Assembly (NCBI GenBank): GCA_016184105.1
Contig: JACPDI010000009.1
Location: 1-64,000 of the forward strand
Direction: 5' to 3'
Source: Acidobacteriota bacterium
GTDB lineage: Bacteria; Acidobacteriota; Vicinamibacteria; Vicinamibacterales; 2-12-FULL-66-21
DNA: 64,000 nt
Position numbers and translations under genes: made by a program
The notes under the pieces: generated by a model
Databases searched by the model: none
Told to the model about the DNA's origin: nothing
What the model saw: only the letters and a program-made list of their open reading frames with translations
In this document: one piece after another, positions 2 through 54,228 of the stretch
Numbering within the stretch: position 1 is the stretch's first letter
Layout of the letters: every line of letters begins with the position of its first letter

Positions 2-550
2 GCGCGAGCGGCCGCCGGGCAGACGGCGGCGGCGCCGGCCCGAAGCGCGCCCCGCGCGGCCGCGACGGCCCGGGCCGAGGCGCCCGCGTGCGGGCGCCTC
101 GTCGTCCGGTCCACGCCGCCTGGCGCGCTGGTGTTCGTCAACGGCCGGCGACGCGGCCGAACGCCGCTCTCGGTGCGCGATCTGGCGCCCGGGACCTATT
201 CGTTGCGCGTCGCGCGAAGCGGGTTCCAGGAGGATTCGCGCCGGGTGACGATTGCCGCCTCGGCCGCCCGGGAGGTCCACGTGCGGCTCGCGCGCGCGCG
301 ATCGAGCGCGGCGCCGGCCCCGGCCGCCGTCAGTTTCACCGGCGCGTTGTACGTGGACTCGCGCCCGCGCGGCGCGCGCGTCGTTCTTGATGGGCGTGCC
401 ATCGGCACCACGCCGATGCAGGTGGGCGACATCCGCGCCGGCGCGCACGTCGTGCGGCTGGAGCTGGCCGACCATCGGCCGTGGACGACGTCGACGACGA
501 TCGCCGCGGGCCGCACGACGCGTGTCACCGGATCGTTGGAAAGGCAGTAA
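2..550 (+). CDS. PEGA-domain protein, C-terminal part (5' end outside window)
   Basis: The reading frame is open from the window edge to the TAA at 548-550, so this is the last 182 residues of a longer protein. After an Ala/Pro/Arg-rich linker there are two PEGA repeats. The first starts near GRLVVRSTPPGALVFVNGRR and the second near GALYVDSRPRGARVVLDGRA; both carry the typical P-x-GA-x-V-x-(V/L)-(N/D)-G and G-x-TP signatures. PEGA units are short beta-sandwich repeats, often found on the extracytoplasmic side of surface proteins or attached to serine/threonine kinases. The catalytic or anchoring part would lie upstream and cannot be judged. The stop overlaps the carA start by one base (TAATG), so the two genes are probably cotranscribed. 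Confidence 0.8.
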   Translation, partial: ARAAAGQTAAAPARSAPRAAATARAEAPACGRLVVRSTPPGALVFVNGRRRGRTPLSVRDLAPGTYSLRVARSGFQEDSRRVTIAASAAREVHVRLARARSSAAPAPAAVSFTGALYVDSRPRGARVVLDGRAIGTTPMQVGDIRAGAHVVRLELADHRPWTTSTTIAAGRTTRVTGSLERQ

Positions 551-36612: not shown

Positions 36613-39600
36613 ATGGAGATGAGACCGCGGATGCTGATCGCCCTGCTCGCCGCGCTCGCCCTGATGAGCGGGCTGGCGTCGGCGCAGGGGCGCGCAGAAG
36701 GATCAATCGCAGGACAGGTACAGGACGGCACGGGAGCGATCCTGCCGGGCGTGACTGTCGTCGCGACGAATGAAGCCACGGGCTTCACGCGCGAAGCCGT
36801 CGCGGATGCCGAAGGAAACTTCCGACTGCCCGCCCTGCCCCCAGGCTCGTACGTGGTCACCGCGACGCTGACCGGTTTCTCGACGTTCAAGAGAAGCGTG
36901 GTGGTCTCCGTCGGATCCGAGAACCGGCTGACCATTCCGCTCGCGGTCGGCAGCATCCAGGAGAGCGTGACGATCACCGGAGAAGCGCCGCTCGTGGACA
37001 CCTCGCGGACGGAGCAGGCGTCGACGATCGCCGAGAGCGAGGTCCGCGCGCTGCCCACCAACAGCCGTGACTTCCTCGAGTTCGCTCTGTTGAGCCCCGG
37101 CGTCGTCCGCGGCCGGACGAGCGGAGCGGGGTGGGGCGGCGACGCCGGCTTCTCGGCCTCCGGCAACCGCGGGGACCAGAACGGCATCAACATCGACGGC
37201 CTGGTCAACAAGACCATGGACACCGGTGAAGAGATCGGGAACTTCAGCCAGGAGGCGGTGCAGGAATTCCAGGTCGTGACGCAGAGCGCGCCGGCCGAGT
37301 ACGGCGGCGCGGCGGGCGGCACGATCAACGCCGTCACCAAATCGGGCACGAACCAGCTGTCCGGTTACGGGTTCATGTTCCTGCGGCACAACGCGTTCGA
37401 CAAGCCCGCGTTCAACTGCTGCGAGACGGGGACCGACGGCGTCAGGACCGCTGTTCCCGAGGACGAGGCGGACGAGTTCCAGCGCCTGATCACGGGGATC
37501 GCGATCGGCGGGCCGATCAGGAAGGACAAGGCGTTCTTCTACGCCGTGTTCGACCGCACCAGCAACAACGAGCCGCGCATCCGGACGATCCGCCAGACGA
37601 CGATCGACACCGTGCGGCGCATCGCGCTGCCGAACATCGCCGACGACGAATCGAACCGGGTGACGCAGTTCAAGCCGAAGTCGACGAAGGGGTCGATCAA
37701 GGTCGACTACACGCTGTCGCGCAAGCACAACGCGTCCGTGCGGTACTCGTTCGCCGACAACTTCTCGCCGGCGGGAACCGCGAACGGCCAGACGTCGATC
37801 GACGTGTCGTCGGAGAGCAAGAACCGCTTCAACCTCGCGAGCGCGTCGCTGACGTCGTTCCTCTCGGAGAAGACGCTGAACACGCTGCGGTTCCAGTACA
37901 ACGACGACAACAACGAGGTGAGCTGGCCGCACCGCGGCGGCCTCGAGAACATCACGAACTGGGACGCCGGGCTCCTCATCAGCGGCGGGACCGGCGGGAC
38001 CTTCGGCGGCGGCAGCTCGGGCAGCTTGAACAAGCACACCTGGGAGACGAAGTGGGAACTCCAGGACACGGTGACCGTGTACCGCGACAACCACCAGATG
38101 AAGTTCGGCGGCCAGCTGATGACCGTGCAGTTCTTCCAGAACTACATGTTCTACACGCTCGGTGAATGGCGTTTCAGCGATCTGAACGCGTTCGTCGCGG
38201 GGCGGCCGAACTCCTTCATCCAGGGGTTCGGACCCGCCGCCGCCTATATCACGCCGAAGGTCATGAGCGGTTTCGTCCAGGACGAGTGGCAGCCGAGCAA
38301 CAGCCTGACGATCAACTACGGGATCCGGTACGAGTACCACAAGTTCCCGGCCGACGTGACGAACTTCGATCTGCGGGAGGCGGTCATCGACCCGCAGACC
38401 GGCAAGTACGACGTGTCGAGCAACGGGTCCTCGCTGATGGGCGGGTTCAAGAACGACACGAACAACGTCGCGCCGCGCGTGGGGCTCTCGTGGGCCATCA
38501 ATGACAAGACGGTCCTCCGCGCCGGCGGCGGGATGTACTACGGCAGCACCTACTACGGCGAGATGACGCAGGGCATGTCCTGGAGCTCCGACCGCTACCG
38601 GCGGTACGATTTCACGTCGGTGGACGCGGCGGCGCTGTGGGCGCAGCTGCGCGATCCCAAGAGCGCGATCTACAACAACGGCGAGCTTCGCCTCGCGACG
38701 CCGCCTTCGGGCAAGCTGTACTCGAACATCGCGCACAACACCGATCTGAAGACGCCGCAGTCCACCCAGCTGTCGGTGGGCCTCGAGCGGCAGCTGACCG
38801 GCAACATCGCCGCGCAGGTCACCGGCCTCTGGTCGCGCGGGCGGAACAACATCCGGGCGATGCACGTCAACCCGCAGGCGGCGGTCTTCTACCCGGCCGG
38901 CTCGCGGCTCCCGTCGAACGTCACCACGCCGTTCGACGTGGACTATCGCGGCGGCACGCGGCCGGATACGACGCGCGAGAACCTGATCCAGTACGAGATG
39001 AACGGCCGCATGAGCTACAAGGGGCTGTCCGCGTCGTTGACGGGGCGCTTCTCCGGCCTGAACGTCCGGCTGATGTACAGCTACAACGATACGTGGGACG
39101 ACGCCACGGCGATCACGTCGCGCAACACGCCATCGGAGACGGACTATCCCAACGGCGAGTGGTCCAAGTCGGTCCTGAGCACGACCCACAGCTTCAGGGG
39201 CTCGGCCGTCTACGAGACGCCAAAGACCTGGGGGGCCTTCGCGCGTGACTGGCAGCTCTCCACGATCGTGAACATCGAAGGGGGGCACCCGTTCCAGGTC
39301 CAGGCCGGCTTCGACTTCAACAACGACACCGTGACGACGGACCGCCCGATAGGCGTCCCGCGCAACGCGCTGTGGACCGACGGCTACAGGAACGTCGACA
39401 TGCGCGTCGCCCGGTTCATTCCGCTGGGCGGCCGCATGAAGGCGGAAGTGATCTTCGAGATCTTCAACCTGCTGAACGCGAAGCACTACAGCAACTACAT
39501 CGATACGCTGTATGTCTCCGCGGGGGGCGGGCGCTACAACCCACGGCCGGACTTCGCCGGGTTCGCGGCGAGCGCCGACCTGAACCAGCGCGACTTCGAC

Positions 39601-39696
39601 CGCGTTCCGGGCGACATCGGCCTGAGCGCGGCGCAGCGGAGGAACGGCGTGGCCGACCCGTTCCAGGGCCAGCTCGCGATTCGTCTGCGCTTCTAG
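36613..39696 (+). CDS. Oar-like TonB-dependent receptor with carboxypeptidase-regulatory domain
   Basis: A 1,027-residue outer-membrane receptor. Signal peptide MLIALLAALALMSGLASAQ; residues about 25-110 are a carboxypeptidase-regulatory-like beta-sandwich (GSIAGQVQDGTGAILPGVTV). The plug follows (LVDTSRTEQASTIAESEVRA; NINIDG-type loop; QEFQVVTQSAPAEYGGAAGG), then a large barrel ending GQLAIRLRF with the terminal aromatic residue. No classical TonB box is obvious. The ATG at 36613 follows GGGGAGGGG. It is the first gene of a same-strand run with a CocE hydrolase and LVIVD proteins, pointing to uptake of the substrate they act on. Confidence 0.9.
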   Translation: MEMRPRMLIALLAALALMSGLASAQGRAEGSIAGQVQDGTGAILPGVTVVATNEATGFTREAVADAEGNFRLPALPPGSYVVTATLTGFSTFKRSVVVSVGSENRLTIPLAVGSIQESVTITGEAPLVDTSRTEQASTIAESEVRALPTNSRDFLEFALLSPGVVRGRTSGAGWGGDAGFSASGNRGDQNGINIDGLVNKTMDTGEEIGNFSQEAVQEFQVVTQSAPAEYGGAAGGTINAVTKSGTNQLSGYGFMFLRHNAFDKPAFNCCETGTDGVRTAVPEDEADEFQRLITGIAIGGPIRKDKAFFYAVFDRTSNNEPRIRTIRQTTIDTVRRIALPNIADDESNRVTQFKPKSTKGSIKVDYTLSRKHNASVRYSFADNFSPAGTANGQTSIDVSSESKNRFNLASASLTSFLSEKTLNTLRFQYNDDNNEVSWPHRGGLENITNWDAGLLISGGTGGTFGGGSSGSLNKHTWETKWELQDTVTVYRDNHQMKFGGQLMTVQFFQNYMFYTLGEWRFSDLNAFVAGRPNSFIQGFGPAAAYITPKVMSGFVQDEWQPSNSLTINYGIRYEYHKFPADVTNFDLREAVIDPQTGKYDVSSNGSSLMGGFKNDTNNVAPRVGLSWAINDKTVLRAGGGMYYGSTYYGEMTQGMSWSSDRYRRYDFTSVDAAALWAQLRDPKSAIYNNGELRLATPPSGKLYSNIAHNTDLKTPQSTQLSVGLERQLTGNIAAQVTGLWSRGRNNIRAMHVNPQAAVFYPAGSRLPSNVTTPFDVDYRGGTRPDTTRENLIQYEMNGRMSYKGLSASLTGRFSGLNVRLMYSYNDTWDDATAITSRNTPSETDYPNGEWSKSVLSTTHSFRGSAVYETPKTWGAFARDWQLSTIVNIEGGHPFQVQAGFDFNNDTVTTDRPIGVPRNALWTDGYRNVDMRVARFIPLGGRMKAEVIFEIFNLLNAKHYSNYIDTLYVSAGGGRYNPRPDFAGFAASADLNQRDFDRVPGDIGLSAAQRRNGVADPFQGQLAIRLRF

Positions 39697-39708
39697 TCCA
39701 TCGCACGA

Positions 39709-39748
39709 GCGCGTCCGCGGGGCGACCCTCCACGCCCCGCGGACGCGC
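39709..39748 (+). terminator. Strong hairpin after the TonB receptor
   Basis: A perfect 16-bp stem (GCGCGTCCGCGGGGCG and its complement) with an 8-nt loop starts 12 bp after the receptor stop. No T-tract follows. It could terminate, or act as a processing or stability hairpin that sets receptor level above the downstream genes. Confidence 0.6.
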
Positions 39749-39799
39749 GGCCGCTCGTCGCCGACACCGCACGACTTGAGAAACAGCCGCGGAGGCTTC

Positions 39800-41830
39800 A
39801 TGTCCACGCCGTCTTCTGCTCGCGCGGGTCATCGCCGCGCCCTTCTGTACTTCCCTCCCGCACTCATCCTCGCACTCGCGTTCGTCCCGCCGGCGTCGTC
39901 GCCGGTCGCGGCGCGCGGAGAAGAGGAGCGGCGCAACCCCGCCGTGTTCTCGGATTACCGGCGTCCCGCCGAGTACGGCGTCGTGGTCGTCGAGAACGTG
40001 ATGGTGCCGATGCGGGACGGCGCGCGGCTCGCCACCGACCTGTACTTCCCCGCGAAGAACGGCCAGATCGCCGCCGGCAGGTTCCCGGCGATTCTCGACC
40101 GCACGCCGTACGACAAGGTGCCGCGGGCCTCCGCGGTGAACAACCCGAAGTACTTCGCCGAGCGCGGCTACGTGTTCGTGTTCCAGGATTCACGCGGCCA
40201 CGGGAAATCGGAAGGGGAGTTCTCGATCTACACGAACGAGGGACGCGACGGCTACGACACGGTCGAGTGGATCGCGAAGCAGCCGTGGTCGGACGGCAAG
40301 GTCGGGACCTCAGGCTACTCGTACGACGCGGCGACCCAGAACTCGCTCGCGCGCGAGACCCCGCCGCACCTGACGTCGATGTTCATCGGCCACGGCACCG
40401 CGAACTACCGCAACGACGGGGCGGGCGACAACGGCGCGTTCGCGCTCTCGCACAACCTGATCTACACGATCGGCCACGCGCAACGCGATCGGATCGCCCG
40501 CGAGAACCCGGCGGTCATGGCGCGCCTCGAGGACGCGGAGGCGCACCAGCTCGAATGGATGCGCCAGCCGCTCTTCAAGCACCTGCAGCTGCTTGAAGAC
40601 GTGCCGCTGGCGAAGCAGTGGTACAAGGCCTGGATCGATCATCCCGACTACGACGACTACTGGAAGCAGAACGGCTACAACTTCGAGGGGTTCTACGATC
40701 GGTACCCGGACGTCCCGGTGTACTTCCTCGGAAGCTGGTACGACTTCTTCATCAAGGGCACGATCCGCAATTATCTCGGGCTGTCCGCGATCCACAAGAC
40801 GCCGAAGCTCCTGACCGTCGCCGGCTCCGCGCACGGGCCCGGGCGCGGCGCCCAGCGCGTGCAGAACGACGTCGACATGGGGCCGGACGGCGCCTACAAC
40901 TGGGACCGCATCCGCCTGCGCTGGTTCGACGAAACGCTGATGGGGCGCAGGACGGGCGTCTTCGATGAGCCGCGCGTGAAGCTCTTCGTGATGGGCGGGG
41001 CCGAGGGATCGCAGCGGACGCCGGCGGGCCGGTTGAACCACGGCGGCCGCTGGCATTCGTTCGACCGCTGGCCCGTGCCGCAGGCCAAGCCGACCAGCTA
41101 CTACCTGCATGCCGGCGGCGGCCTGTCGACCGAGCCTCCGGCGGCCGGCGCGGGGCCGAGCGGCTTCACGTTCGACCCGGCCAACCCGGTTCCGCAGCTC
41201 GGGGGGAACTACTCGACGCCGTCAGTCTGGGGCCCGCGCGACCAGCGGTGCTCCACGGCGATCTGGCCGTGCACCAACGACCTGCCGCTGTCCTCGCGCG
41301 CCGACGTGCTGGTCTTCCAGACGCCCGTCCTGGACCGTGACATCAGCATCGCCGGTCCGCTGACGGTCAAGTTGTGGGCCGCCTCCTCCGCCGTGGACAC
41401 CGATTTCACGGTGAAGCTGGTCGATGAGTACCCGCCGAGCGTGGAGTATCCGCACGGCTACGCGATGATCCTGCAGGACTCGATCGTCCGCGCGCGCTAC
41501 CGGAACTCGCTCGAGAAGGCGGAGTTGATGGAGCCCGGACGCGTGTACGAGTTCACGATCGACATGTGGGCCACCGCCAACCTGTTCAAGAAAGGGCACC
41601 GCATCCGCCTGGATGTGTCGAGCAGCAACTTCCCGAAGTACGACGTCAACCCGAACACCGGGGGCCCCATCGGATACGACACGCGCCGGATCGTCGCGAA
41701 CAACATCGTGTATCACGATCGGGACCACCCGTCGCACATCATCCTGCCGGTGCTGCAGTCGCCGGCAACCACCTCGTCGGCGCCGGCGCCGGCGGCAGAC
41801 CGTTCGTCTCGTCACAAGGAGGACCGTTGA
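39800..41830 (+). CDS. CocE/NonD-family hydrolase (exported)
   Basis: A 676-residue exported hydrolase of the CocE/NonD, X-Pro dipeptidyl-peptidase-like class. Signal segment LLYFPPALILALAFVPPASS; N-terminal alpha/beta-hydrolase fold with VPMRDGARLATDLYFP, RTPYDK, FQDSRGHGKSEG, and a nucleophile-elbow candidate GTSGYSYDAATQ (less canonical than G-x-S-x-G-G). A C-terminal jelly roll follows (ISIAGPLTVKLWAASSAVDT; FKKGHRIRLDVSSSNFPKYD). Such enzymes cleave acyl-ester or amide bonds, including acylase-type substrates that release dicarboxylates. The ATG at 39800 has GGAGG upstream. The stop overlaps the next start (TGATG). Confidence 0.87.
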   Translation: MSTPSSARAGHRRALLYFPPALILALAFVPPASSPVAARGEEERRNPAVFSDYRRPAEYGVVVVENVMVPMRDGARLATDLYFPAKNGQIAAGRFPAILDRTPYDKVPRASAVNNPKYFAERGYVFVFQDSRGHGKSEGEFSIYTNEGRDGYDTVEWIAKQPWSDGKVGTSGYSYDAATQNSLARETPPHLTSMFIGHGTANYRNDGAGDNGAFALSHNLIYTIGHAQRDRIARENPAVMARLEDAEAHQLEWMRQPLFKHLQLLEDVPLAKQWYKAWIDHPDYDDYWKQNGYNFEGFYDRYPDVPVYFLGSWYDFFIKGTIRNYLGLSAIHKTPKLLTVAGSAHGPGRGAQRVQNDVDMGPDGAYNWDRIRLRWFDETLMGRRTGVFDEPRVKLFVMGGAEGSQRTPAGRLNHGGRWHSFDRWPVPQAKPTSYYLHAGGGLSTEPPAAGAGPSGFTFDPANPVPQLGGNYSTPSVWGPRDQRCSTAIWPCTNDLPLSSRADVLVFQTPVLDRDISIAGPLTVKLWAASSAVDTDFTVKLVDEYPPSVEYPHGYAMILQDSIVRARYRNSLEKAELMEPGRVYEFTIDMWATANLFKKGHRIRLDVSSSNFPKYDVNPNTGGPIGYDTRRIVANNIVYHDRDHPSHIILPVLQSPATTSSAPAPAADRSSRHKEDR

Positions 41831-43341
41831 TGTCACGCCGGTGGAAGACCGCAGCAGGGGGCGCGCTCGTGGCGGCGGCGGTGATGACGGGCCTCATCGT
41901 CATCGCCGAGGCGCAGCAGGCCGGCCAGGGCACCCATCCGAGGAAAAACGAGGAGGGCTTCCAGTTCGGCGGCTACAAGCCGCCGATCAAATGGGACGGG
42001 CCGCGGCGCATGCAGCCCGAGTCGAAGAACATGCGCCTGGTCGGCTGGACCGACATGAACGGCCGGCCGGACGGCGAGCAGGTCACCGGGCAGGTGATCA
42101 ACGGGCGCGACTACATCTTCTACGGCCACTACTGGAGCCAGGGGGTCTCGATCGTGGACGTGACCGATCCCGGCAGGCCGGAGACCGTCGCGTTCATTCC
42201 CGTGCAGGTGCCGTACGGCAAGACGACGAAGGTGCAGGTGTCGGGCAACGTCCTGATGGTGCCCTCGCGCACGTTGTACGAGCTTGACCACAAGGGCCCC
42301 GTGCTGCCGCGGCACGGCGTCACCTTCTACGACGTGTCCGATCCGAAGAAGCCGAAGGAGCTTTCGTTCTTCCAGACGGCCACGCGCGACGAGAAGCTGC
42401 CGGACGGCGTGCACTACAGCTGGTTCGCGTCGAAGTACGCGTACCTCTCGGCGCCGGTGAACGGCTACAACCGGCTGATCTACGTGATTGTGGACGTGAG
42501 CGATCCGAAGAACCCGAAGGAGGCCGGGCGCTGGTGGTATCCGGGCCAGCACACGGCGGGCGGCGAGAAGCCGCAGCCGGGGTTCGAGGATTACTGGGTG
42601 CACGGCGCGCAGGCGAACCGCGATGAGACGCTGGGATTCGCCGGCACGCTGAGCGATCCTCCCGGCGGCCTCGTGATCCTCGACATCAAGGACAAGTCGA
42701 AGCCCACCGTCCTCAGCCGCCTCGATCTGAGCCCGCCGATGGTCGACGGGTACTTCGGCGTCCACAACGTCGTCACGATGGACTCGCGCAAGATCCTCGT
42801 GATGATGCACGAGGCGACCGCCGCGCCGAGATCGCAGACGCAGATGACCGGCTGGGTCGTCGACTACTCGGACCCGCGCAATCCGGTGATTCTCTCCGTT
42901 CTGCCGATCCCGGAGGGGCACGACTACAGCAAGCCGGCCCGCTTCGGTCCGCACAACGCGCACGAGAACCATCCCAACGGCCTCGTCGACGACTACATGG
43001 CCTATATGAGCTGGTTCAACGGCGGCGTCCGCGTGTTCGACCTGTCCGATCCGAAGCACCCGTTCGAGGCCGGCCACTTCAGGCCCGCCGATCCCAAGCG
43101 GCGGGTCGACGCGCGCACGTGGAACGGCAAGCCGGGGGACCCCAACGGCTCCGAGCTGTCGTCGATGAACCACGTGTACGTGGACAAGCGCGGCTACATC
43201 TACGCGAGCGGGTACAACGACGGGCTGTACATCCTCGAGTACACGGGGCCGCGGCCGCAGGGCTCGCGGACCGCGCTCGAGGAGGCGAAGCGCGCGCGAG
43301 GCGGGCAGGTCGGCCTCGCAGCGGATGGCCGGCAGGACTGA
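41830..43341 (+). CDS. LVIVD-repeat propeller protein A (subtype II)
   Basis: A 503-residue exported beta-propeller-like protein. Signal peptide GGALVAAAVMTGLIVIAEA, then PPIKWDGPRR, LVGWTDMNGRPDGEQ and GHYWSQGVSIVDVTDPGRPE, the last being the LVIVD repeat signature. Further blades: IYVIVDVSDPKNPKEAGRWW, LVILDIKDKSKPTVLSRLDL, WVVDYSDPRNPVILSVLPIP and VRVFDLSDPKHPFEAGHF. Histidine motifs GPHNAHENHPNGL and VHNVVTMDS are kept in all five copies and could be functional. Subtype II shows VAFIPVQVPYGK and GVHYSWFASKYAYLSAP. It overlaps the CocE hydrolase stop, with AGGAGG upstream. Function unknown. Confidence 0.85.
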   Translation: MSRRWKTAAGGALVAAAVMTGLIVIAEAQQAGQGTHPRKNEEGFQFGGYKPPIKWDGPRRMQPESKNMRLVGWTDMNGRPDGEQVTGQVINGRDYIFYGHYWSQGVSIVDVTDPGRPETVAFIPVQVPYGKTTKVQVSGNVLMVPSRTLYELDHKGPVLPRHGVTFYDVSDPKKPKELSFFQTATRDEKLPDGVHYSWFASKYAYLSAPVNGYNRLIYVIVDVSDPKNPKEAGRWWYPGQHTAGGEKPQPGFEDYWVHGAQANRDETLGFAGTLSDPPGGLVILDIKDKSKPTVLSRLDLSPPMVDGYFGVHNVVTMDSRKILVMMHEATAAPRSQTQMTGWVVDYSDPRNPVILSVLPIPEGHDYSKPARFGPHNAHENHPNGLVDDYMAYMSWFNGGVRVFDLSDPKHPFEAGHFRPADPKRRVDARTWNGKPGDPNGSELSSMNHVYVDKRGYIYASGYNDGLYILEYTGPRPQGSRTALEEAKRARGGQVGLAADGRQD

Positions 43342-43357
43342 CCGACGAGGAGGGCAC

Positions 43358-44884
43358 ATGGCGCGTTCGCACAGCAACCCGTGGATCGTTCCGGCGATCG
43401 GGGCCGTCGCGGCCGGCACCGTCTGGCTCGGCGGCGCGCAGCTGGCCTCGCAGCAGTCCAGCCCGGTGAGCCACCAGGAGATCTATGGGCAGGAGGGATT
43501 CCCGTACGCCCAGCACAAGCCGCCGATCAAATGGGACGGCCCGCGGCGGCTCCAGCCGCAGGCGCAGAACGTCCGTCTGGTCGGGTGGAGCGATCTGAAC
43601 GGCCGCGCGGACGGCGAGCAGATCGATGGCGCCGTCATCAACGGGCGCGATTACATCTTCTACGGGCATTACTGGAGCCAGGGCGTCAGCATCGTGGACG
43701 TGACCGATCCGAAGAAGCCCGAGGTGGTCTCGTTCATCAAGAACCGCGACCCGATGGGGCACTACACGAAGGTGCTCGTCAACCACAAGAACATCATGAT
43801 GTTGCCGCTCGGCACGCTGACCGAGCTCGATGACGCCAAGCAGAAGCCGATCAAGGAGCACGGGGTCAGCTTCTACGACGTCAACGACCCCAAGAATCCG
43901 AAGTTCCTGTCGTTCTACCGGACGGCCCCCGGCAGCATCATCAACAAGGGGGTGCACTCCTGCTGGTTCGTGGACGACTACGCGTACCTGTCGACGCCGG
44001 CCGAGGGGTACTCGGGCCGGATCTTCCTGATTCTCGACGTGCGCGACCCGAGAAATCCGAAGGAGGTGGGGCGCTGGTGGATGCCGGGGCAGCACACGGC
44101 CGGCGGCGAGAAGTTCGAGCCGGGGTTCGAGCACGCGAGCCTCCACGGCGCCCAGGCGAACCGCGACGGCACGCTCGGGTTCTACTGCGCGCGGCCCGAT
44201 CCGCCGGGCGGCATGGTGATCCTCGACATCCGCGACAAGGCCAAGCCGGCGTTCCTGAGCCGGCTGGATCTCAGCCCGCCGATGATCGACGACTACTTCG
44301 CGATTCACAACGTGGTGACGTTCGACAGCCGCGGGCTGCTGGCGATGCTCGACGAGGGATCCGGGAACAACCTGTTGAAGCCGGAGAAGACCGGCTGGAT
44401 CGTGGACGTGAAGGACCCGAAGAATCCGGTGATCCTCTCCGTCCTGCAGACGCCGCAGGACGTCGACCGGCGCCACCCCGTTCGATTCGGCATCCACAAC
44501 GCGCACGAGAACCAGCCGGGGTCGCTCATCGACGACTACATGCTGTATGTCAGCTGGTTCCGCGCCGGGATGCGCATCTTCGATCTCTCGGACCCGAAGC
44601 ACCCGGTCGAGGCGGGGTACTTCAGGCCGCCCGATCCGAAGTACCGCATCGATGACACCACCTGGAACGGCACAGAAGGCGATCCGGACGGCTCGGAACT
44701 GTCGTCGCTGAACCACGTGTACGTCGATCAGCGCGGGTTGATCTACACGAGCGGGTACAACGACGGGCTGTACATCCTCGAGTACACGGGCCCCCGCCCC
44801 CAGGGATCGCGGGCGGCACTCGAGACGGCAAGGCGCCAGCGCGAGCAGCAGATCGCTGCCTCCGCGCAGGCACAGCGCCAGTGA
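43358..44884 (+). CDS. LVIVD-repeat propeller protein B (subtype I)
   Basis: A 508-residue paralogue, 16 bp after copy A. The N-terminal hydrophobic segment IVPAIGAVAAGTVWLGGAQL should export or anchor it. Blades include SIVDVTDPKKPEVVSFIKNR, IFLILDVRDPRNPKEVGRWW, MVILDIRDKAKPAFLSRLDL and MRIFDLSDPKHPVEAGYFRP. Subtype I features: SPVSHQEIYGQEGFPYAQ near the N-terminus and DPMGHYTKVLVNHKNIMMLP. Histidine-rich IHNAHENQPGSLIDDY and FAIHNVVTFDS are present. The full PPIKWDGPRR...LVGWSDLNGRADGEQ block is kept, unlike copies C and D. Confidence 0.85.
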   Translation: MARSHSNPWIVPAIGAVAAGTVWLGGAQLASQQSSPVSHQEIYGQEGFPYAQHKPPIKWDGPRRLQPQAQNVRLVGWSDLNGRADGEQIDGAVINGRDYIFYGHYWSQGVSIVDVTDPKKPEVVSFIKNRDPMGHYTKVLVNHKNIMMLPLGTLTELDDAKQKPIKEHGVSFYDVNDPKNPKFLSFYRTAPGSIINKGVHSCWFVDDYAYLSTPAEGYSGRIFLILDVRDPRNPKEVGRWWMPGQHTAGGEKFEPGFEHASLHGAQANRDGTLGFYCARPDPPGGMVILDIRDKAKPAFLSRLDLSPPMIDDYFAIHNVVTFDSRGLLAMLDEGSGNNLLKPEKTGWIVDVKDPKNPVILSVLQTPQDVDRRHPVRFGIHNAHENQPGSLIDDYMLYVSWFRAGMRIFDLSDPKHPVEAGYFRPPDPKYRIDDTTWNGTEGDPDGSELSSLNHVYVDQRGLIYTSGYNDGLYILEYTGPRPQGSRAALETARRQREQQIAASAQAQRQ

Positions 44885-44924
44885 GCGCGCGGCGGTGGCG
44901 ACGTGTGAACAGGAAGGAGATAAC

Positions 44925-46397
44925 ATGACTCGGCTTCGCAGCAACGTCCGGGTACTGGCGGCGACGGCGGTCGTCGCCTGCGCCGGGTGGCTGGGCACCG
45001 AACGACTGGCCTCGCAGCAGCAGTCCCCGGTGAGCCACGAGGAGGTGTACGGCCAGCAGGAGTTCCCGTACGCACAGAAGAAACCGCCGATCAAGTGGGA
45101 CGGCCCGCGCCGGATGCAGCCCCAGGGCGAGCAGATCGACGGCGCAGTCATCAACGGCCGCGACTACATCTTCTACGGCCACTACTGGAGCCAGGGCGTC
45201 AGCATCGTGGACGTGACCGATCCGGCCAAGCCGGAAGTCGTCTCGTTCATCAAGAACCGGGATCCGATGGGGCACTACACGAAGGTGCTCGTCAACCACA
45301 AGAACATCATGATGCTGCCGATCGGCACGCTGACCGAGCTGGACCAGGCCAAGCGGAAGCCGATCAAGGAGCACGGCGTCAGCTTCTACGACATCAACGA
45401 TCCGAAGAACCCGAAGTTCCTGTCCTTCTACAAGACCGCGCCGGGCACCCTCATCAACAAGGGAGTGCACTACAGCTGGTTCGTGGACGATTACGCCTAC
45501 CTGTCGGCCCCCGTCGAAGGGTACGGCGGCCGGATCTTCCTGATTCTCGACGCCCGCGATCCGAGAAACCCGAAGGAAGTGGGGCGCTGGCACTACCCGG
45601 GCCAGCACACCGCGGCCGGCGAGAAGCTCGAGGCGAGCGTCGAGCGGATGGACGCGCACGGCTCGATGACGAACCGCGACGGGACGGTCGGCTTCTACTG
45701 CGTGCTCGGCGATCCCCCGGGAGGGGTTAACATTCTCGACATCCGCGACAAGGCGAACCCGAAGCTCCTCAGCCGGATCGACCTGAGCCCGCCGATGACC
45801 CCCGGATATTTCGGCGTCCACAACGTCGTGACCATGGACTCTCGGAAGATCATGGCCATGATGCACGAGGGGGCCGGGAACTCACTCCTGCGGCCGCAGA
45901 TGACCGGGTGGGTGGTGGACATGAAGGATCCCGCCAAGCCGGTGATCCTCTCGATCCTGCCGATTCCCCAGGGCTTTGACCGCACGGTGCCTGCGCGCTT
46001 CGGGCCGCATAACGCGCACGAGAACCAGCCCGGCTCCCTGATCGACGACTACATGTTCTACATCAGCTGGTTCCGCGGCGGCCTGCGGATCTTCGATCTG
46101 TCGGATCCCAAGCACCCGGTCGAAGCCGGCTTCTTCCTCCCGCCGGATCCGAAGTACCGGACCGACGACATCACGTGGAACGGGAAGCCGGGGGACCCGA
46201 ACGGATCGGAGTTGTCGTCGCTGAACCACGTGTACGTGGATCAGCGCGGCCTGATCTACACGAGCGGCTACAACGACGGCCTGTACATTCTCGAGTACAC
46301 CGGTCCGCGGCCGCAGGGATCGGTGACGGCGCTCGAGGAAGCGAAGCGCAGCCGCGAGCGGCAGATCGCCGCCGCGGCGGCCGCGCAGCGACGGTAG
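44925..46397 (+). CDS. LVIVD-repeat propeller protein C (subtype I, probable lipoprotein)
   Basis: A 490-residue paralogue closest to B and E. The N-terminus RVLAATAVVACAGWLG contains a lipobox-like VVAC, suggesting lipid anchoring. Blades as in B: SIVDVTDPAKPEVVSFIKNR, IFLILDARDPRNPKEVGRWH, VNILDIRDKANPKLLSRIDL and LRIFDLSDPKHPVEAGFFLP. It lacks 17 residues present in B: GPRRMQPQ is followed directly by GEQIDGAVINGRD, an in-frame deletion of the LVGWSDLNGRAD stretch. The first blade strand is probably affected. GGAAGGAG-type ribosome site before the ATG at 44925; a strong hairpin follows the stop. Confidence 0.85.
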   Translation: MTRLRSNVRVLAATAVVACAGWLGTERLASQQQSPVSHEEVYGQQEFPYAQKKPPIKWDGPRRMQPQGEQIDGAVINGRDYIFYGHYWSQGVSIVDVTDPAKPEVVSFIKNRDPMGHYTKVLVNHKNIMMLPIGTLTELDQAKRKPIKEHGVSFYDINDPKNPKFLSFYKTAPGTLINKGVHYSWFVDDYAYLSAPVEGYGGRIFLILDARDPRNPKEVGRWHYPGQHTAAGEKLEASVERMDAHGSMTNRDGTVGFYCVLGDPPGGVNILDIRDKANPKLLSRIDLSPPMTPGYFGVHNVVTMDSRKIMAMMHEGAGNSLLRPQMTGWVVDMKDPAKPVILSILPIPQGFDRTVPARFGPHNAHENQPGSLIDDYMFYISWFRGGLRIFDLSDPKHPVEAGFFLPPDPKYRTDDITWNGKPGDPNGSELSSLNHVYVDQRGLIYTSGYNDGLYILEYTGPRPQGSVTALEEAKRSRERQIAAAAAAQRR

Positions 46398-46411
46398 CGG
46401 CACGGGCTCAT

Positions 46412-46442
46412 CGTGGCACGTGCCCCGGCGGCACGTGCCGCG
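46412..46442 (+). terminator. Hairpin after LVIVD copy C
   Basis: Two copies of the palindrome GGCACGTGCC (46415-46424 and 46430-46439) pair around CCGGC, and the stem extends three pairs outward. No T-tract. Either a terminator or an RNA-stabilising hairpin. Confidence 0.5.
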
Positions 46443-46496
46443 ATGCCGGCCCAGGTGTACTGACGCCGGAGAGTGGGACACAGACGAGGAGCCGAT

Positions 46497-47966
46497 ATGC
46501 CGAACAAGGATCAGCGCGCGCGCGTCCGGTTCGCCCCCGCGCTGGCGGTGGCGGTGGTCGCCGGGGCGCTCGCGATCGGAGCGCAGTTGGGGGCGCAGCA
46601 GCAGTCGCAGCAGCCGAAGACGGGCGAGGGCTTCAATTTCGGCGGGAAGAAGCCGCCGATCGCGAAAAACATGAAGCTGGTCGGCTGGACGGACATGAAC
46701 GGCCGCCCGGACGGCGAGCAGGTGACCGGGCAGGTGATCAACGGCCGCGACTACATCTTCTACGGGCACTACTGGAGCCAGGGCGTCAGCATCGTCGACG
46801 TGACGGATCCCGCCAAGCCGCAGACGGTCGCGTTCATCCCCGTGCAGGATCCCTACGGCAAGTTCACGAAGGTGCAGGTGTCCGGCACGGTGCTGATGGT
46901 GCCGATCAGAAGCCTCTATGAGATCGACGGAGAGCGGCCGGTGCTTCCCAGGCACGGCGTGCTCTTCTTCGACGTGTCGGACCCGCGCAACCCGAAACAG
47001 CTCTCGTACTTCAAGACCGCCGATCGGGACGAGAACCTGCGCGACGGCGTGCATTTCAGCTGGTTCGCGTCGAAATACGCGTATCTCTCGGCGCCGGCGA
47101 GCGGCTACCGCGGGCACGTCTACATGATCGTGGATGTCAGCGATCCGAAGAACCCGAAGGAAGCGGGGCGCTTCTGGTCGAAGGGGCAGCACGTCGCCGG
47201 AGGTGAGACCTACGTGCAGGACGAGGTGCCGACCACGCACGGCGCGCAGGCCAACAGGGACGAGACGCTGGGCTTTTCGGCGACGCTGGGGGACCCGCCG
47301 GGCGGGCTGATCATCCTGGACATCAGGGACAAGGCGAATCCGAAGCCGCTGAGCCGCCTGGACATGAGCCCGCCCATGCCGGCCACCTATTTCGGCGTGC
47401 ATAACGTCGTCACGATGGATTCGCGCAAGCTGCTGGTCTGCATGAACGAGGGAACCGGCGCGCCGCGCTCGAAAGCGCAGCAGACCGGCTGGGTGGTCGA
47501 CTACTCGGATCCAACCAAGCCGATCATCCAGTCCATCCTGCCGATTCCGCCGAACCACGACATGGACCGGCCGGCACGCTTCGGCCCGCACAACGCCCAC
47601 GAGAACCATCCGAACGGATTGATCGACGACTGGATGCTCTACATCAGCTGGTTCAGCCGCGGCGTCCGCGTCTTCGACCTGTCCGACCCGAGGCATCCCG
47701 CCGAGACCGGGTTCTTCGAGCCGCCTGATCCCAAGGCCCGCATCGACGCGCGCACGTGGAAGGGCAAGCCCGGCGATCCGAACGGATCCGAGCTGTCCTC
47801 GCTCAATCATGTGTACGTCGACAAGCGCGGGTACATCTACGCGAGCGGGTACAACGACGGGCTGTACATCCTCGAGTACACCGGCCCGCGGCCGCAGGGG
47901 TCGCAGACCGCGCTCCAGGAAGGCAGGCGCGAGCGCCAGCGCCTCGGCGCCGCGGCGCAGGACTGA
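46497..47966 (+). CDS. LVIVD-repeat propeller protein D (subtype II)
   Basis: A 489-residue paralogue closest to A. Signal ALAVAVVAGALAIGAQLGAQ. Blades: SIVDVTDPAKPQTVAFIPVQ, VYMIVDVSDPKNPKEAGRFW, LIILDIRDKANPKPLSRLDM, WVVDYSDPTKPIIQSILPIP and VRVFDLSDPRHPAETGFFEP. Conserved GPHNAHENHPNGLIDDW. Compared with A it lacks about 11 residues: KKPPI runs straight into AKNMKLVGWTDMNGRPDGEQ, losing KWDGPRRMQPES. This is the neighbouring half of the block lost in copy C. ATG at 46497 with GAGGAG upstream. Confidence 0.85.
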   Translation: MPNKDQRARVRFAPALAVAVVAGALAIGAQLGAQQQSQQPKTGEGFNFGGKKPPIAKNMKLVGWTDMNGRPDGEQVTGQVINGRDYIFYGHYWSQGVSIVDVTDPAKPQTVAFIPVQDPYGKFTKVQVSGTVLMVPIRSLYEIDGERPVLPRHGVLFFDVSDPRNPKQLSYFKTADRDENLRDGVHFSWFASKYAYLSAPASGYRGHVYMIVDVSDPKNPKEAGRFWSKGQHVAGGETYVQDEVPTTHGAQANRDETLGFSATLGDPPGGLIILDIRDKANPKPLSRLDMSPPMPATYFGVHNVVTMDSRKLLVCMNEGTGAPRSKAQQTGWVVDYSDPTKPIIQSILPIPPNHDMDRPARFGPHNAHENHPNGLIDDWMLYISWFSRGVRVFDLSDPRHPAETGFFEPPDPKARIDARTWKGKPGDPNGSELSSLNHVYVDKRGYIYASGYNDGLYILEYTGPRPQGSQTALQEGRRERQRLGAAAQD

Positions 47967-47976
47967 CCGATGAGGG

Positions 47977-48007
47977 AGCGCCGGCGGGCCGCGTGCGGCC
48001 GCCGGCG
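47977..48007 (+). terminator. Hairpin between LVIVD copy D and the SLC13 transporter
   Basis: GCGCCGGCGGGCCGC pairs with GCGGCCGCCGGCGC through one bulged G and a GT loop. It ends 11 bp before the transporter start, so it could also mask that ribosome-binding region. Confidence 0.5.
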
Positions 48008-48018
48008 CAAGACACCAT

Positions 48019-49572
48019 ATGGATTCGACCGCTCCGATCCTGAACGATCCGGTTGACGTGCAGGACGACTCGTCGCTCGGCCTGGTCTCGCTGGCCGAAG
48101 CACGATTCGAGCACTGGCGCCGGACCATCGGCTTGTTCGCCGGTCCCATCGCGTTGGCCCTCGTCTGGCTGCTGCCGATTGCCGGTTTGTCCTCCGAGGC
48201 GCACCGCCTGGCGGCGGTCGTCGCGCTCGTGGTCTGCTGGTGGGTCACCGAGCCGATCCCGCTGCCCGCCACGGCGCTGGTGGGGGTCGTGCTCACGGTG
48301 CTCGCCGGCATTTCGACGGCGGCCGACGCCTTCGCGCCGTTCGCGAACCCGATCATCTTCCTGTTCATCGGCAGCTTCATGATCGGGCGGGCGATGTCCG
48401 CGCATGCCCTCGATCGCCACCTCGCGTTCGGACTGCTGGCGCTGCCCATCGTCCGCGGCAATGTCGGGCGGACCCGGTTCGCGGTCGCGGGCCTGTGCGT
48501 GGCGCTCTCCGCATGGATGAGCAACACGGCCACGGCGGCCATGATGGTGCCGGTCGCCATTGGCGTCCTCGAGGCCACCCGGCGGGACCGTTCGTCTCCG
48601 CTGCGATCGCCGGTTGCCGTCGGATTCCTGCTGACCATCGCGTACGGCGCCGCCATCGGCGGGATGATGACGCCGATCGGCACACCGCCGAACCTGATTG
48701 CGATCGGCCTGCTCGATCGGCTGGCCGGTGTCCGCATCGACTTCGTGAGCTGGATGCTGATCGGCGTGCCGATCGCGCTCGCCATGGGCGTGGCCATGTA
48801 CGCGCTCAGCTCGATCATGTTCGCGGACCGCACCACGATGGCGCAATCAGCCGCCGCGTACATCCAGCGCGAGCAATCAACCGCGCGCCAATGGACGCCT
48901 GGCAAACGCAACTGCATCATTGCGTTCGGCACGGCCGTCGTGCTCTGGGTGACCCCGGGCATTATCGCGGCGGCGGGGGTCACCTCACCGCTGGCCAGGA
49001 GCATTGCCGGGCGGCTTGACGAAGGGGTGGTCGCCATCGCCGCAGCGTCCCTCCTCTTCCTCCTGCCCATCAACTGGCGGCGGCGGCAGTTCACCCTGGA
49101 CTGGAAAGCCGCGTCCGGGATCGACTGGGGGACCATCCTCCTGTTTGGCGGCGGCCTCTCGCTCGGCCGCCTGATGTTCGAGACGGGACTCGCGTCCGTG
49201 CTCGGAAGCGGGCTCGTGTCTCTGACGGGTGCGGAATCCCTGTGGGCGGTCACGGCCGTTGGGATCGTCGCGGCCATTGCGCTCACGGAAGTCACTTCGA
49301 ACACGGCGGCGGCGAACATGCTCGTGCCCGTCATCCTGACGATCTGCGCCGCGGGCGGCCTGAACCCGGTGCCGCCCGTCCTGGGCGTGGCGCTCGGGAC
49401 GAGCATGGCCTTCATGCTGCCGATTTCGACGCCCCCGAACGCGATCATCTATGGCACGGGGCTGGTCCGCATCACCGAGATGATGCGATTCGGTCTGATC
49501 GTGGACGCGATCGGGGCCGTCATCCTGTTTGGCGGGCTCCGGTTGCTGTGCCCGCTCCTGGGGTTCTCGTGA
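48019..49572 (+). CDS. SLC13/DASS-family dicarboxylate or sulfate transporter
   Basis: A 517-residue inner-membrane transporter with about 11-12 hydrophobic segments. The two SNT signature loops of the divalent-anion:sodium symporter family are present: WMSNTATAAMM and TSNTAAANMLVPV, each followed by a TPP loop (TPIGTPPNLIAIG; MLPISTPPNAIIYG). The WWVTEPIPLPATAL and FLFIGSFMIGRAM stretches also match. DASS proteins import succinate-like di/tricarboxylates, or sulfate in some branches. Its position inside the receptor/hydrolase/LVIVD run suggests it imports a carboxylate released there. Its stop overlaps the next small gene by one base. Confidence 0.92.
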   Translation: MDSTAPILNDPVDVQDDSSLGLVSLAEARFEHWRRTIGLFAGPIALALVWLLPIAGLSSEAHRLAAVVALVVCWWVTEPIPLPATALVGVVLTVLAGISTAADAFAPFANPIIFLFIGSFMIGRAMSAHALDRHLAFGLLALPIVRGNVGRTRFAVAGLCVALSAWMSNTATAAMMVPVAIGVLEATRRDRSSPLRSPVAVGFLLTIAYGAAIGGMMTPIGTPPNLIAIGLLDRLAGVRIDFVSWMLIGVPIALAMGVAMYALSSIMFADRTTMAQSAAAYIQREQSTARQWTPGKRNCIIAFGTAVVLWVTPGIIAAAGVTSPLARSIAGRLDEGVVAIAAASLLFLLPINWRRRQFTLDWKAASGIDWGTILLFGGGLSLGRLMFETGLASVLGSGLVSLTGAESLWAVTAVGIVAAIALTEVTSNTAAANMLVPVILTICAAGGLNPVPPVLGVALGTSMAFMLPISTPPNAIIYGTGLVRITEMMRFGLIVDAIGAVILFGGLRLLCPLLGFS

Positions 49573-49889
49573 TGCCTCGCCGAGCGCGCCGCCTGAGTGT
49601 GCGCCGCCGGCGCCTTGCTGCCGCCCTGACCGGCGCGCTCGTGGGCGCGCTGCTCGTACCTCGAGCCACGTCCGTGCTCTTCCCGGAGACAGACGCGCCC
49701 CTGCGCCGCGGAGCGTCGACCGAGCGCCTCGCCAGGCTCTTCGAGGAACACGGCTTCATGGTGGAGCGCGGCCCCGCCGGTACCGCGACGGTGTTCCTGG
49801 GCGCCGGCACGTCGGGGCGCCCGGTGATCGTGTTCATGACCGAGGATGACATCATCCGCGCGAACTCGCCGCTGACCTCAGTTGAGTGA
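49572..49889 (+). CDS. Small membrane-anchored protein coupled to the SLC13 transporter
   Basis: A 105-residue protein starting MPRRARRLSVRRRRLAAALT: a very basic N-terminus, one hydrophobic helix (ALTGALVGALLVP) and a soluble C-terminal domain with RLARLFEEHGFMVERGPAGT and PVIVFMTEDDIIRANSPL. No known family. Its start overlaps the transporter stop (TGATG), a sign of translational coupling, and LVIVD copy E follows after 15 bp. An accessory subunit of the transporter is possible but unproven. Confidence 0.65.
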   Translation: MPRRARRLSVRRRRLAAALTGALVGALLVPRATSVLFPETDAPLRRGASTERLARLFEEHGFMVERGPAGTATVFLGAGTSGRPVIVFMTEDDIIRANSPLTSVE

Positions 49890-49904
49890 CAGGAGATATC
49901 CGCG

Positions 49905-51416
49905 ATGAGGAGCCGCAGTCTGAGAACGGGCGTCCTGGCAGCAGCCGTCACCGGCTGCGCGATCTGGCTCACGGTCGAACCGGTGACCACCCAGCAGTCG
50001 CCGGTCAGCCAAGAGGAGATCTACGGCCAGCAGGCGTTTCCCCACGCGCAGAAGAAGCCGAACATCAAGTGGGACGGCCCCCGGCGGATGCAGCCGGAGG
50101 GGAAGAACATCAGGCTCGTCGGCTGGACCGATCTGAACGGTCACCCCGACGGTGAGCAGATCGCCACGAAGGTGATCAACGGGCGCGACTACGCCTTCTA
50201 CGGCCATTACTGGAGCCAGGGCGTCAGCATCGTCGATGTCACGGATCCCACCAGACCGGAAGTCGTGTCGTTTATCAAGAATCGCGATCCGCTGGGGCAC
50301 TACACGAAGGTGCTCGTCAACCACAAGAACATCCTGATGATGCCGATCGGCATCCTCAACGAGCTGGACCAGCCGCTGCGGAAGCCGCTGAAGGACCACG
50401 GGGTCGTCTTTTATGACGTCAACGATCCCAGGAACCCCAGGTTCCTGTCGTTCTATCGCACCGGGCCCGGTGCGATCACGGAGAAGAACCACGGCGTTCA
50501 CTACAGCTGGTTCGTCGACGACCATGCGTACATCTCGGCGGTCGTGGAGGGCTACAGCGGGACGATCTTCATGATCCTCGATGCCTCGGACCCGAGGAAC
50601 CCGAAAGAGGTCGGGCGCTGGCACTACCCGGGTCAGCACACGGCGGCAGGCGAGAAGCTCGAGCCCGGCTTCGAGGGCATCTGGGCGCACGGCGCGATGA
50701 CCAATCGCGACGCGACCCTTGGCTTCTACTGCGTGTTGAGCGACCCGCCCGGCGGCGTCAACATTCTCGACATCCGCGACAAGTCGAAGCCGACGCTGCT
50801 CAGCCGCCTCGACATGAGCCCGCCGATGATCGACGACTACTTCGGCGTCCACAACGTCGTGACCATGGATACGCGCGGCATCATGGCGATGATGCATGAG
50901 GCCGGCGGCCCGCCGCGCGCGCGAGCGCAGCGTACCGGGTGGGTCGTGGACATCAAGGATCCGAAGAACCCGGTGATTCTCTCGGTGCTGCCGATCCCAC
51001 AGGGCTTCGATCTGAGCGTACCCGCGCGGTTCGGCGCGCACAACGCTCACGAGAACCAGCCGGGGTCCCTCATGGACGACTACATGTTCTACGTCAGCTG
51101 GTTCCGCGGGGGGCTGCGTATCTTCGATCTGTCCGACCCGAAGCACCCGGTCGAAGCCGGGTACTTCCTGCCGCCCGACCCGAAGTACCGGATTGACGCG
51201 CGCACCTGGAGTGGCAAGCCTGGAGACCCGGACGGCTCCGAGTTGTCGTCGCTGAACCACGTGCACGTCGATCAGCGCGGGCTGATCTACCTCAGCGGCT
51301 ACAACGACGGCCTCTACATCGTCGAGTACACCGGGCCGAGACCGGAGGGATCGCGCAAGGCGCTCGAGGAAGCCAGGAGGCAGCGCGAGCAGGCCATCGC
51401 CGCCGCGCGGCGGTAG
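49905..51416 (+). CDS. LVIVD-repeat propeller protein E (subtype I, probable lipoprotein)
   Basis: A 503-residue full-length paralogue. The N-terminus RTGVLAAAVTGCAIWL has the lipobox-like VTGC. It keeps SPVSQEEIYGQQAFPHAQ, NIKWDGPRRMQPEGKN and LVGWTDLNGHPDGEQ. Blades: SIVDVTDPTRPEVVSFIKNR, IFMILDASDPRNPKEVGRWH, VNILDIRDKSKPTLLSRLDM, VVDIKDPKNPVILSVLPIPQ and LRIFDLSDPKHPVEAGYFLP. AHNAHENQPGSLMDDY and FGVHNVVTMDT are present. Ribosome site GGAG before the ATG at 49905. Separation from copies A-D by the transporter suggests the cluster grew by duplication around it. Confidence 0.85.
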   Translation: MRSRSLRTGVLAAAVTGCAIWLTVEPVTTQQSPVSQEEIYGQQAFPHAQKKPNIKWDGPRRMQPEGKNIRLVGWTDLNGHPDGEQIATKVINGRDYAFYGHYWSQGVSIVDVTDPTRPEVVSFIKNRDPLGHYTKVLVNHKNILMMPIGILNELDQPLRKPLKDHGVVFYDVNDPRNPRFLSFYRTGPGAITEKNHGVHYSWFVDDHAYISAVVEGYSGTIFMILDASDPRNPKEVGRWHYPGQHTAAGEKLEPGFEGIWAHGAMTNRDATLGFYCVLSDPPGGVNILDIRDKSKPTLLSRLDMSPPMIDDYFGVHNVVTMDTRGIMAMMHEAGGPPRARAQRTGWVVDIKDPKNPVILSVLPIPQGFDLSVPARFGAHNAHENQPGSLMDDYMFYVSWFRGGLRIFDLSDPKHPVEAGYFLPPDPKYRIDARTWSGKPGDPDGSELSSLNHVHVDQRGLIYLSGYNDGLYIVEYTGPRPEGSRKALEEARRQREQAIAAARR

Positions 51417-51438
51417 GACGGCGCACGAGGAGGCGGCT

Positions 51439-52074
51439 GTGGACCGTCGGCGATTGTCGAGAAGGCGGCGGCGGGCGCCGCGCCAGGACGGTGGACTTCC
51501 ACGCCCACTGCGTGGTGCCCGGTATCAGGGAGATGCTCGGTGAGACGACGCCGCCGGACAGCCCGCTGCTGATGGGTCCACGGCGGCTCGAAGCGATGGA
51601 TAGGCAGGGGATCGACCTCGAGATCCTCAGCATCAATCCGTTCTGGTACCGCGCCGATCGCGATCTCGCGCGCAAGCTGATCACGACACAGAACGAAAAG
51701 CTCGCGCAGCTCTGCGCGGCGCATCCCGGCCGGTTCGCCGCGCTCGCCGCCGTGGCGCTGCAGCATCCCGACCTTGCGGCCGAGCAGCTTCAGCAGGCCA
51801 TGAAGGCATTCGGTCTCGGCGGCGCCTCGGTCCCGGCTGAAGGGCAACGGCGTTCTGGGCAACGTGATCGGCAACCCCCTGGAGACCACCATCGCGCTCT
51901 CTCACCTGATCTTCGAAGGGACGCTGGACCGGTTTCCGGGCCTGAAGATTTGCGCGGCGCACGGCGGGGGGTACCTCCCAGGAACACGTCCTCGGCACGC
52001 CGGGCCTCAGCGCCGACGACCGCCGCGCGATTCTCGGCGGCAACGCCGCGCGCCTGCTGAACCTGGCGCCGTAA
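51439..52074 (+). pseudogene. ACMSD-type amidohydrolase, decayed by several internal deletions
   Basis: Pieces of one amidohydrolase (2-amino-3-carboxymuconate semialdehyde decarboxylase-like, normally about 340-380 residues) lie in three frames. They are a Tat-like start MDRRR with KAAAGAA in another frame; VDFHAHCVVPGIREMLGETT to MKAFGLGGASV (51491-51832); LKGNGVLGNVIGNPLETTIA to CAAHGGGYLP (about 51837-51981); and VLGTPGLSADDRRAILGGNA with ARLLNLAP and the stop at 52072-52074. About 40 and 90 residues are missing at the two main gaps, including metal-site histidine and aspartate regions. It follows LVIVD copy E by 22 bp and may once have belonged to that pathway. Confidence 0.75.
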
Positions 52075-52086
52075 GCCGGCGCTCGT

Positions 52087-53127
52087 CTACGTGAAGTCGG
52101 CGAAGTACGGAATCGCGCGGAGCGCCAGGGCGAGGACGATCAGCAGGAGGGCCGGGATCGCGAACCACGCGAACGCCGGGGCGTTGCGGATCGCTATCGT
52201 GTTGGTCAGCTTTCCGCGTTCCAGCTTGTCGATGGCTGCCGAGGCCGCCTGCAGCTGGTCGGCGGTGGCCGCGTCGTAATACTGCCCCCCGTAGCTTCGA
52301 ACCGTGCTGACGAGCCGACGGACGGTGTCGGTCCCGCGCAGGTTCGCCTCGAGGTCGATCCCGATGACGTGCGTGCGGATTTCCGTCGCAGCGGCATCCG
52401 CCAGCGCGGAGATCGGATCGCGCCCGTAGTTGTGCACGCCGTCGGTGAACACCAGCGTCACCTTGCCTACCCGCCGGTCGGTGGACTGCCGCCACAGCAG
52501 GTAGTTCGCCAGCCCGATGCCGTCCCCGATCGCCGTCAGCCCTTCACCCTGCAGGATCTGATCGTCAATCATGTTCACGTAATGCATCAAGGAGTTGTGA
52601 TCGAACGTGAGCGGGCTGACGATGTAGGCGTTCTCGGAAAAGACGACCAGGCCGATGCGATCGTCGTGTCGTGCGGCGATGAAGGTGCGCAGCGCGCGCC
52701 TGGTGACCTCCAGGCGCGTGCGTCCGGTCCTCGCGGCGGCGGCGGCGACGCCGGCGGCGGCAGGCGTGCCTCCGACCGGCCCCCACGCGGGGGCGCCCGC
52801 GGCGCGCTCGGCGCGCATGACCTCGTGGATGCTGTTCGAGAGGTCCAGGACCAGCACGATGTCGAGTCCCTGCGACTTGACCTGCGCGTGCGACAGCGGC
52901 ACGACGGGGTCGGCGAGCCCCGCGAGGACGAGCGCGAAGGCCAGGGCGAGAAGCACGGAAGGAAGCCGGCGGACGGGTGACGCCCATGCGTCCGCTTCAC
53001 GCAGCCAGGCGGTGGCGGTGAAGGCGACGAACCGCCGGCGCCGAACGAGGCGGCAGGCGAGCGCCAGCAACGCCGCTGCCGGGAGCAGCCAGAGCACTTC
53101 CGGCTGGAGGACGCTGATGCCGCTCAT
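52087..53127 (-). CDS. BatA/BatB-like von Willebrand A membrane protein (last gene of operon)
   Basis: A 346-residue inner-membrane protein. Two N-terminal hydrophobic segments (VLWLLPAAALLALACRLV; PSVLLALAFALVLAGLADPV) lead into a VWA domain with the metal site DIVLVLDLSNSIHE (DxSxS) and LVFTDGVHNYG. A C-terminal helix (FAWFAIPALLLIVLALALRA) ends it. Compared with usual BatA proteins, an Ala/Gly-rich insert (GPVGGTPAAAGVAAAAARTG) separates the first strand from its helix. The ATG at 53127 overlaps the upstream stop by four bases (ATGA). Bat proteins form periplasm-facing complexes with a MoxR ATPase. Confidence 0.85.
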   Translation of the reverse strand: MSGISVLQPEVLWLLPAAALLALACRLVRRRRFVAFTATAWLREADAWASPVRRLPSVLLALAFALVLAGLADPVVPLSHAQVKSQGLDIVLVLDLSNSIHEVMRAERAAGAPAWGPVGGTPAAAGVAAAAARTGRTRLEVTRRALRTFIAARHDDRIGLVVFSENAYIVSPLTFDHNSLMHYVNMIDDQILQGEGLTAIGDGIGLANYLLWRQSTDRRVGKVTLVFTDGVHNYGRDPISALADAAATEIRTHVIGIDLEANLRGTDTVRRLVSTVRSYGGQYYDAATADQLQAASAAIDKLERGKLTNTIAIRNAPAFAWFAIPALLLIVLALALRAIPYFADFT

Positions 53128-54224: not shown

Positions 54225-54228
54225 CCGG

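Follow-up and report, generated by a model that had tools for sequence, protein, structure and literature searches.

A TonB receptor block with five LVIVD-repeat propellers distantly related to the Sphingobium phosphotriesterase in an Acidobacteriota genome

Five LVIVD-repeat proteins encoded in one block of an Acidobacteriota genome are, based on profile and structure comparisons, distant relatives of the haloalkylphosphorus hydrolase/phosphotriesterase of Sphingobium sp. TCM1 (Sb-PTE). The reading preferred here, with a probability of roughly 0.58, is that they are secreted seven-bladed propeller metalloenzymes which arose by tandem expansion and are fed by a TonB-dependent receptor, with a CocE-type hydrolase probably acting on that substrate or one related to it. 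The substrate of the propellers need not be an organophosphate.

The window analysed is the whole stretch of 64,000 nucleotides. Gene calls were based on open reading frames together with Pfam and NCBIfam matches, and the block of around 15 kb has all its genes on the + strand:

36613-39696, +: TonB-dependent receptor with ATG start, consisting of CarboxypepD_reg, plug and OMP_b-brl_4 barrel (PF25183 318 bits, PF13620 74 bits)
39709-39748, +: hairpin with perfect 16-bp arms in the receptor/CocE gap (z -4.2)
39800-41830, +: exported CocE/NonD hydrolase, S15 + PepX_C (TIGR00976, 404 bits)
41830-43341, +: LVIVD propeller 1 with a signal-like N-terminal segment, its start inside the CocE stop (TGATG) (PF08309)
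43358-44884, +: LVIVD propeller 2 (PF08309)
44925-46397, +: LVIVD propeller 3, about 17 residues short around the first strand (PF08309)
46409-46445, +: hairpin with 16-bp arms in the propeller 3/4 gap (z -4.3)
46497-47966, +: LVIVD propeller 4 (PF08309)
47978-48008, +: shorter, GC-rich hairpin in the propeller 4/SLC13 gap (z -2.9)
48019-49572, +: DASS/SLC13 symporter with two Ser-Asn-Thr motifs (TIGR00785)
49572-49889, +: 105-aa protein with one hydrophobic segment (from the translation)
49905-51416, +: LVIVD propeller 5, the copy used for the structure model (PF08309)
51488-52074, +: decayed PF04909 amidohydrolase in three pieces and three frames, with two internal stretches gone (Pfam, comparison with the intact gene of locus L075)

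Every gene named in an earlier, sequence-only reading of this DNA is present where that reading placed it, and so are both TGATG stop/start overlaps it pointed out (41828-41832 and 49570-49574); its gene list lacked the amidohydrolase remains at 51488-52074. A search across the block for a shift in GC content, as a sign of foreign origin by base composition, found none. On the 5' side, a PF01979-type amidohydrolase gene (34691-36310, - strand) is divergent from the receptor, while an ordinary MoxR/DUF58/VWA gene set (52087-57151, - strand) follows 3' of the block.

All five copies score above the gathering cut-off of PF08309 (25.2-37.8 bits for the whole protein, cut-off 20.2). As a six-frame query against the genome the same model gave no match at an E-value of 0.001, a plausible outcome given how short the repeat is. 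The copies share 58-77% pairwise identity over their full length with a dN/dS of around 0.2-0.5 and are therefore considered genuine paralogous genes rather than chance ORFs, and are under purifying selection. In the tree they are monophyletic (support 1.0) on a long stem and represent one lineage-specific tandem expansion. Searches of 149 genomes from the order, 396 from the phylum and 12 from the family, and of the collection of named genomes, found no close kin, and the best identity to any relative found outside the five is about 40% or less. The five copies alone as query retrieved no relative from the named genomes; the broader alignment as query retrieved 80 loci. The N terminus is basic and hydrophobic, of signal type, in all five copies, so that as judged from their sequence the proteins are probably secreted or periplasmic. 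Copy 3 (44925-46397), which lacks around 17 residues at the first strand of blade 1, may be decaying. Elsewhere in the same genome two further, more distant LVIVD pairs are present, on contigs 11 and 14, the latter (locus L114, 7178-10613) encoding two LVIVD-type proteins in tandem. Such tandem arrangements of LVIVD genes are frequent across the order.

A profile of 57 diverse relatives matches Sb-PTE (5hrm, 5ioj) with an E-value of 2.8e-21 over profile positions 4-397 of 400. The predicted model of copy 5 (pLDDT 83.7, pTM 0.85) was compared to the PDB using Foldseek, with 5hrm as the top match (E 4e-19), followed by an unrelated propeller at 1e-9; unrelated propellers trail 5hrm by some nine to ten orders of magnitude. 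Identity to the solved enzyme is only around 18%, with a TM-score of 0.59. The shape score of VIA-align favours ordinary WD40 propellers (Z 30-31), with 5hrm not among the 50 matches listed, and the fold alone is therefore not diagnostic. Sequence and fold homology taken together are significant. The profile search, and the structure prediction that the sequence-only reading had proposed, identified a solved and characterised homologue for proteins which that reading had described as having no known function, a description now outdated.

Like Sb-PTE, an enzyme of an organophosphate pathway (PMC4945803, PMC11656708), the LVIVD copies form a seven-bladed propeller, match the profile over the full length and align with several of its conserved histidines. 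Unlike Sb-PTE, with which not every invariant residue aligns, they occur as five copies together with a TonB receptor, and any shared activity is putative. The first description of LVIVD repeats, from archaeal and bacterial surface proteins, assigned them no enzyme role (PMC2447325); unlike those repeats, the proteins compared here are full-length relatives with an invariant His/Glu set. In this way a large family labelled only 'LVIVD repeat' or 'hypothetical' in the databases becomes tied to one solved hydrolase, with defined residues to mutate.

Using the residue numbering of copy 5, His262, His316, Glu332 and His379 are invariant in all 57 relatives, His199 is kept in 55 and His101 in 51. 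These five histidines and one glutamate, invariant or nearly so, are retained in all five copies. At position 452 most relatives carry Asp, and all five copies His. According to the strand order of the copy 5 model, the conserved residues all occupy the corresponding edge of blades 1, 3, 4, 5, 6 and 7, and such a shared edge would be the place expected for the metal site of a propeller enzyme. In the profile alignment, His199 and His316 match histidines in 5hrm and His262 and His452 probably do as well, while His379 falls on Val and Glu332 is offset. With signal-type N termini and invariant His/Glu residues, the earlier description of exported propellers with shared, enzyme-like histidine sites is supported.

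A His-rich conserved site would also suit copper oxidases of the selenium-binding/methanethiol oxidase type (SBP56), to which the propellers show weak matches (PF05694 18-21 bits, NCBIfam MtoX 14 bits) and of which 2ece appears in the Foldseek list. However, the curated cut-offs are 34 and 650 bits, respectively, so that all matches fall below them, and the Foldseek E-value is 1e-7 versus 4e-19 for the phosphotriesterase. Membership of SBP56 was accordingly rejected, and the copper oxidase explanation is regarded as very improbable. The choice-of-anchor B family (TIGR04312) was likewise discarded, at 34 bits with 100 needed.

The neighbourhoods of LVIVD genes were surveyed in 70 regions of the order (978 kb), containing 82 LVIVD genes, with 20 regions (360 kb) from three genomes as controls. 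Of the 82 LVIVD genes, 9 have an OMP_b-brl_4 receptor gene immediately upstream in the same orientation, compared to around one expected from the receptor density in the controls (estimated roughly; some of the nine come from related genomes). The receptor-LVIVD linkage in the order is real. One of the nine pairs is found on contig 11 of the same genome (locus L113, 8251-14237, - strand), where an OMP_b-brl_4 receptor gene precedes two LVIVD genes, after which come membrane-fusion and ABC efflux genes.

TonB uptake loci of the SusC/SusD type, i.e. polysaccharide utilisation loci, combine a TonB receptor, exported hydrolases and a paired soluble protein, and the block is alike in these components. 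Unlike such loci, no SusD-like gene was seen in the block, the partner here being a propeller. The propellers might then be non-catalytic periplasmic or surface proteins that pass a ligand to the receptor in a SusD-like manner, five copies widening the ligand range. A propeller makes a good scaffold for binding, copies in tandem point to a difference in ligands, and both the CarboxypepD_reg/OMP_b-brl_4 layout of the receptor and its recurrence directly upstream of LVIVD genes agree with this role. Yet several His and Glu that stay invariant across 57 diverse relatives, many of which have no signal peptide and no nearby receptor, fit catalysis better, and the closest solved relative is an enzyme; a purely binding role is considered unlikely.

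For propeller metalloenzymes, the preferred reading, we infer the following steps. The TonB receptor would carry the substrate across the outer membrane. Seven side chains of the propellers (His101, His199, His262, His316, Glu332, His379 and His452) would probably hold one or two metal ions, and a metal-activated water could break an ester bond, a lactone or a comparable linkage. The co-translated CocE hydrolase probably trims this compound or a related one, and a carboxylate product could be taken up by the SLC13 carrier. The case for CocE acting on the same compound as the propellers is weak, and SLC13 as the last step of the pathway is unsupported. A broader and more tentative proposal is that this LVIVD clade comprises widespread, undescribed metal-dependent catabolic hydrolases, which in this order would be dedicated exported partners of OMP_b-brl_4 receptors, forming a new uptake system expanded fivefold here.

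The CocE hydrolase scores 404 bits to TIGR00976 (cut-off 66.3) and has both S15 and PepX_C; its translation contains all three residues of a candidate triad, with Ser in GYSYD, Asp in GSWYD and His in GSAHG. As a direct partner of an LVIVD gene elsewhere, a CocE gene was found in one case, locus L174, where the LVIVD and S15 genes overlap by 4 bp and the LVIVD protein groups in the clade of the five copies. At that locus (2-4162, - strand), cytochrome P460, LVIVD and CocE-type hydrolase genes stand in a row.

Compared with the intact gene of locus L075, the amidohydrolase pieces directly downstream of propeller 5 show 52-78% identity and lack residues at about 174-205 and 266-328. No intact copy of this PF04909 amidohydrolase was found elsewhere in the genome. 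A PF04909 gene directly adjoins an LVIVD gene in two of the surveyed regions (L160 and L214), and the same adjacency occurs in other phyla among the named genomes (L040, L085 and L092); the LVIVD proteins of L085, L092 and L214 group in the clade of the five copies. Since the gene is decayed in this block while it accompanies this clade elsewhere, the PF04909 gene type has been lost here. The recurrent pairing of LVIVD genes with outer-membrane receptors and PF04909 amidohydrolases provides testable leads to the substrate, and may help to trace the origin of the flame-retardant-degrading phosphotriesterase of sphingomonads.

The SLC13 carrier reaches 263.8 bits to TIGR00785 (cut-off 198.6) and contains SNT twice in its translation. 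In the dicarboxylate transporter VcINDY, two Ser-Asn-Thr motifs bind carboxylates (PMC7553777), and the carrier of the block resembles these DASS/SLC13 transporters in having both. Unlike the receptor, an SLC13 gene was seen beside LVIVD genes in none of the 70 regions of the order, and no LVIVD or CocE gene was found near the closest SLC13 relatives (58-60% identity). SLC13 was therefore dropped as part of a conserved set. In genus g49, SLC13 and CocE genes lie near each other without LVIVD, most likely as simple synteny. The 105-aa protein has no Pfam or NCBIfam match and no relative in the LVIVD loci compared; its gene overlaps that of SLC13 by TGATG and stops 15 bp short of propeller 5.

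The row is broken by three strong intergenic hairpins, at 39709, 46409 and 47978, none of them with a T run. They may or may not terminate transcription, and a scan for consensus terminators and promoters gave no more matches than shuffled sequences. Because of these hairpins a single transcript is doubtful; the tightest groups they leave are CocE with propellers 1, 2 and 3, and SLC13 with the small protein and propeller 5. A single coherent uptake operon is thus not supported. Of the outer-membrane-to-cytoplasm route and conserved neighbourhood that the sequence-only reading had put forward, the receptor-LVIVD link stands and CocE-LVIVD recurs once, while the SLC13 link is not supported.

The block could accordingly be a loose neighbourhood, in which the receptor, CocE with propellers 1-3, propeller 4, and SLC13 with the small protein and propeller 5 form units of their own, whose roles are unrelated or only partly related. 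The strong hairpins that occupy three of the longer gaps, the dead amidohydrolase, the missing SLC13 linkage and the full gene set, found in no other genome searched, are in line with this. On the other hand, every gene over 15 kb lies on one strand, the hairpins without a T run may not terminate, and the TGATG overlaps of CocE/propeller 1 and SLC13/small protein, together with the short distance to propeller 5, join neighbouring genes. Receptor-LVIVD, CocE-LVIVD and PF04909-LVIVD pairs also recur elsewhere. A loose neighbourhood is possible, though not favoured over propeller enzymes served by a receptor.

In other genomes, LVIVD relatives are found in catabolic clusters with PF04909 amidohydrolases, enolase-superfamily enzymes, RidA, TctABC or sugar ABC transporters. 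The TctABC, enolase-superfamily, RidA and sugar ABC neighbours fit enzymes of carboxylate or sugar-acid catabolism. As for TctABC, in a Synergistales MAG (L037, 5077-9414) genes of this tripartite tricarboxylate transporter immediately precede an LVIVD gene, and to this extent the earlier idea of a carboxylate-type transporter has a counterpart in another phylum, though not in SLC13. RidA-type genes (PF01042) adjoin LVIVD genes in several phyla (L010, L011, L036 and L105, with L011 assigned by similarity to L010). In some genomes of the order, large Vps10/BNR propellers directly adjoin LVIVD genes (L117, 5651-8944; L018, 2841-4190).
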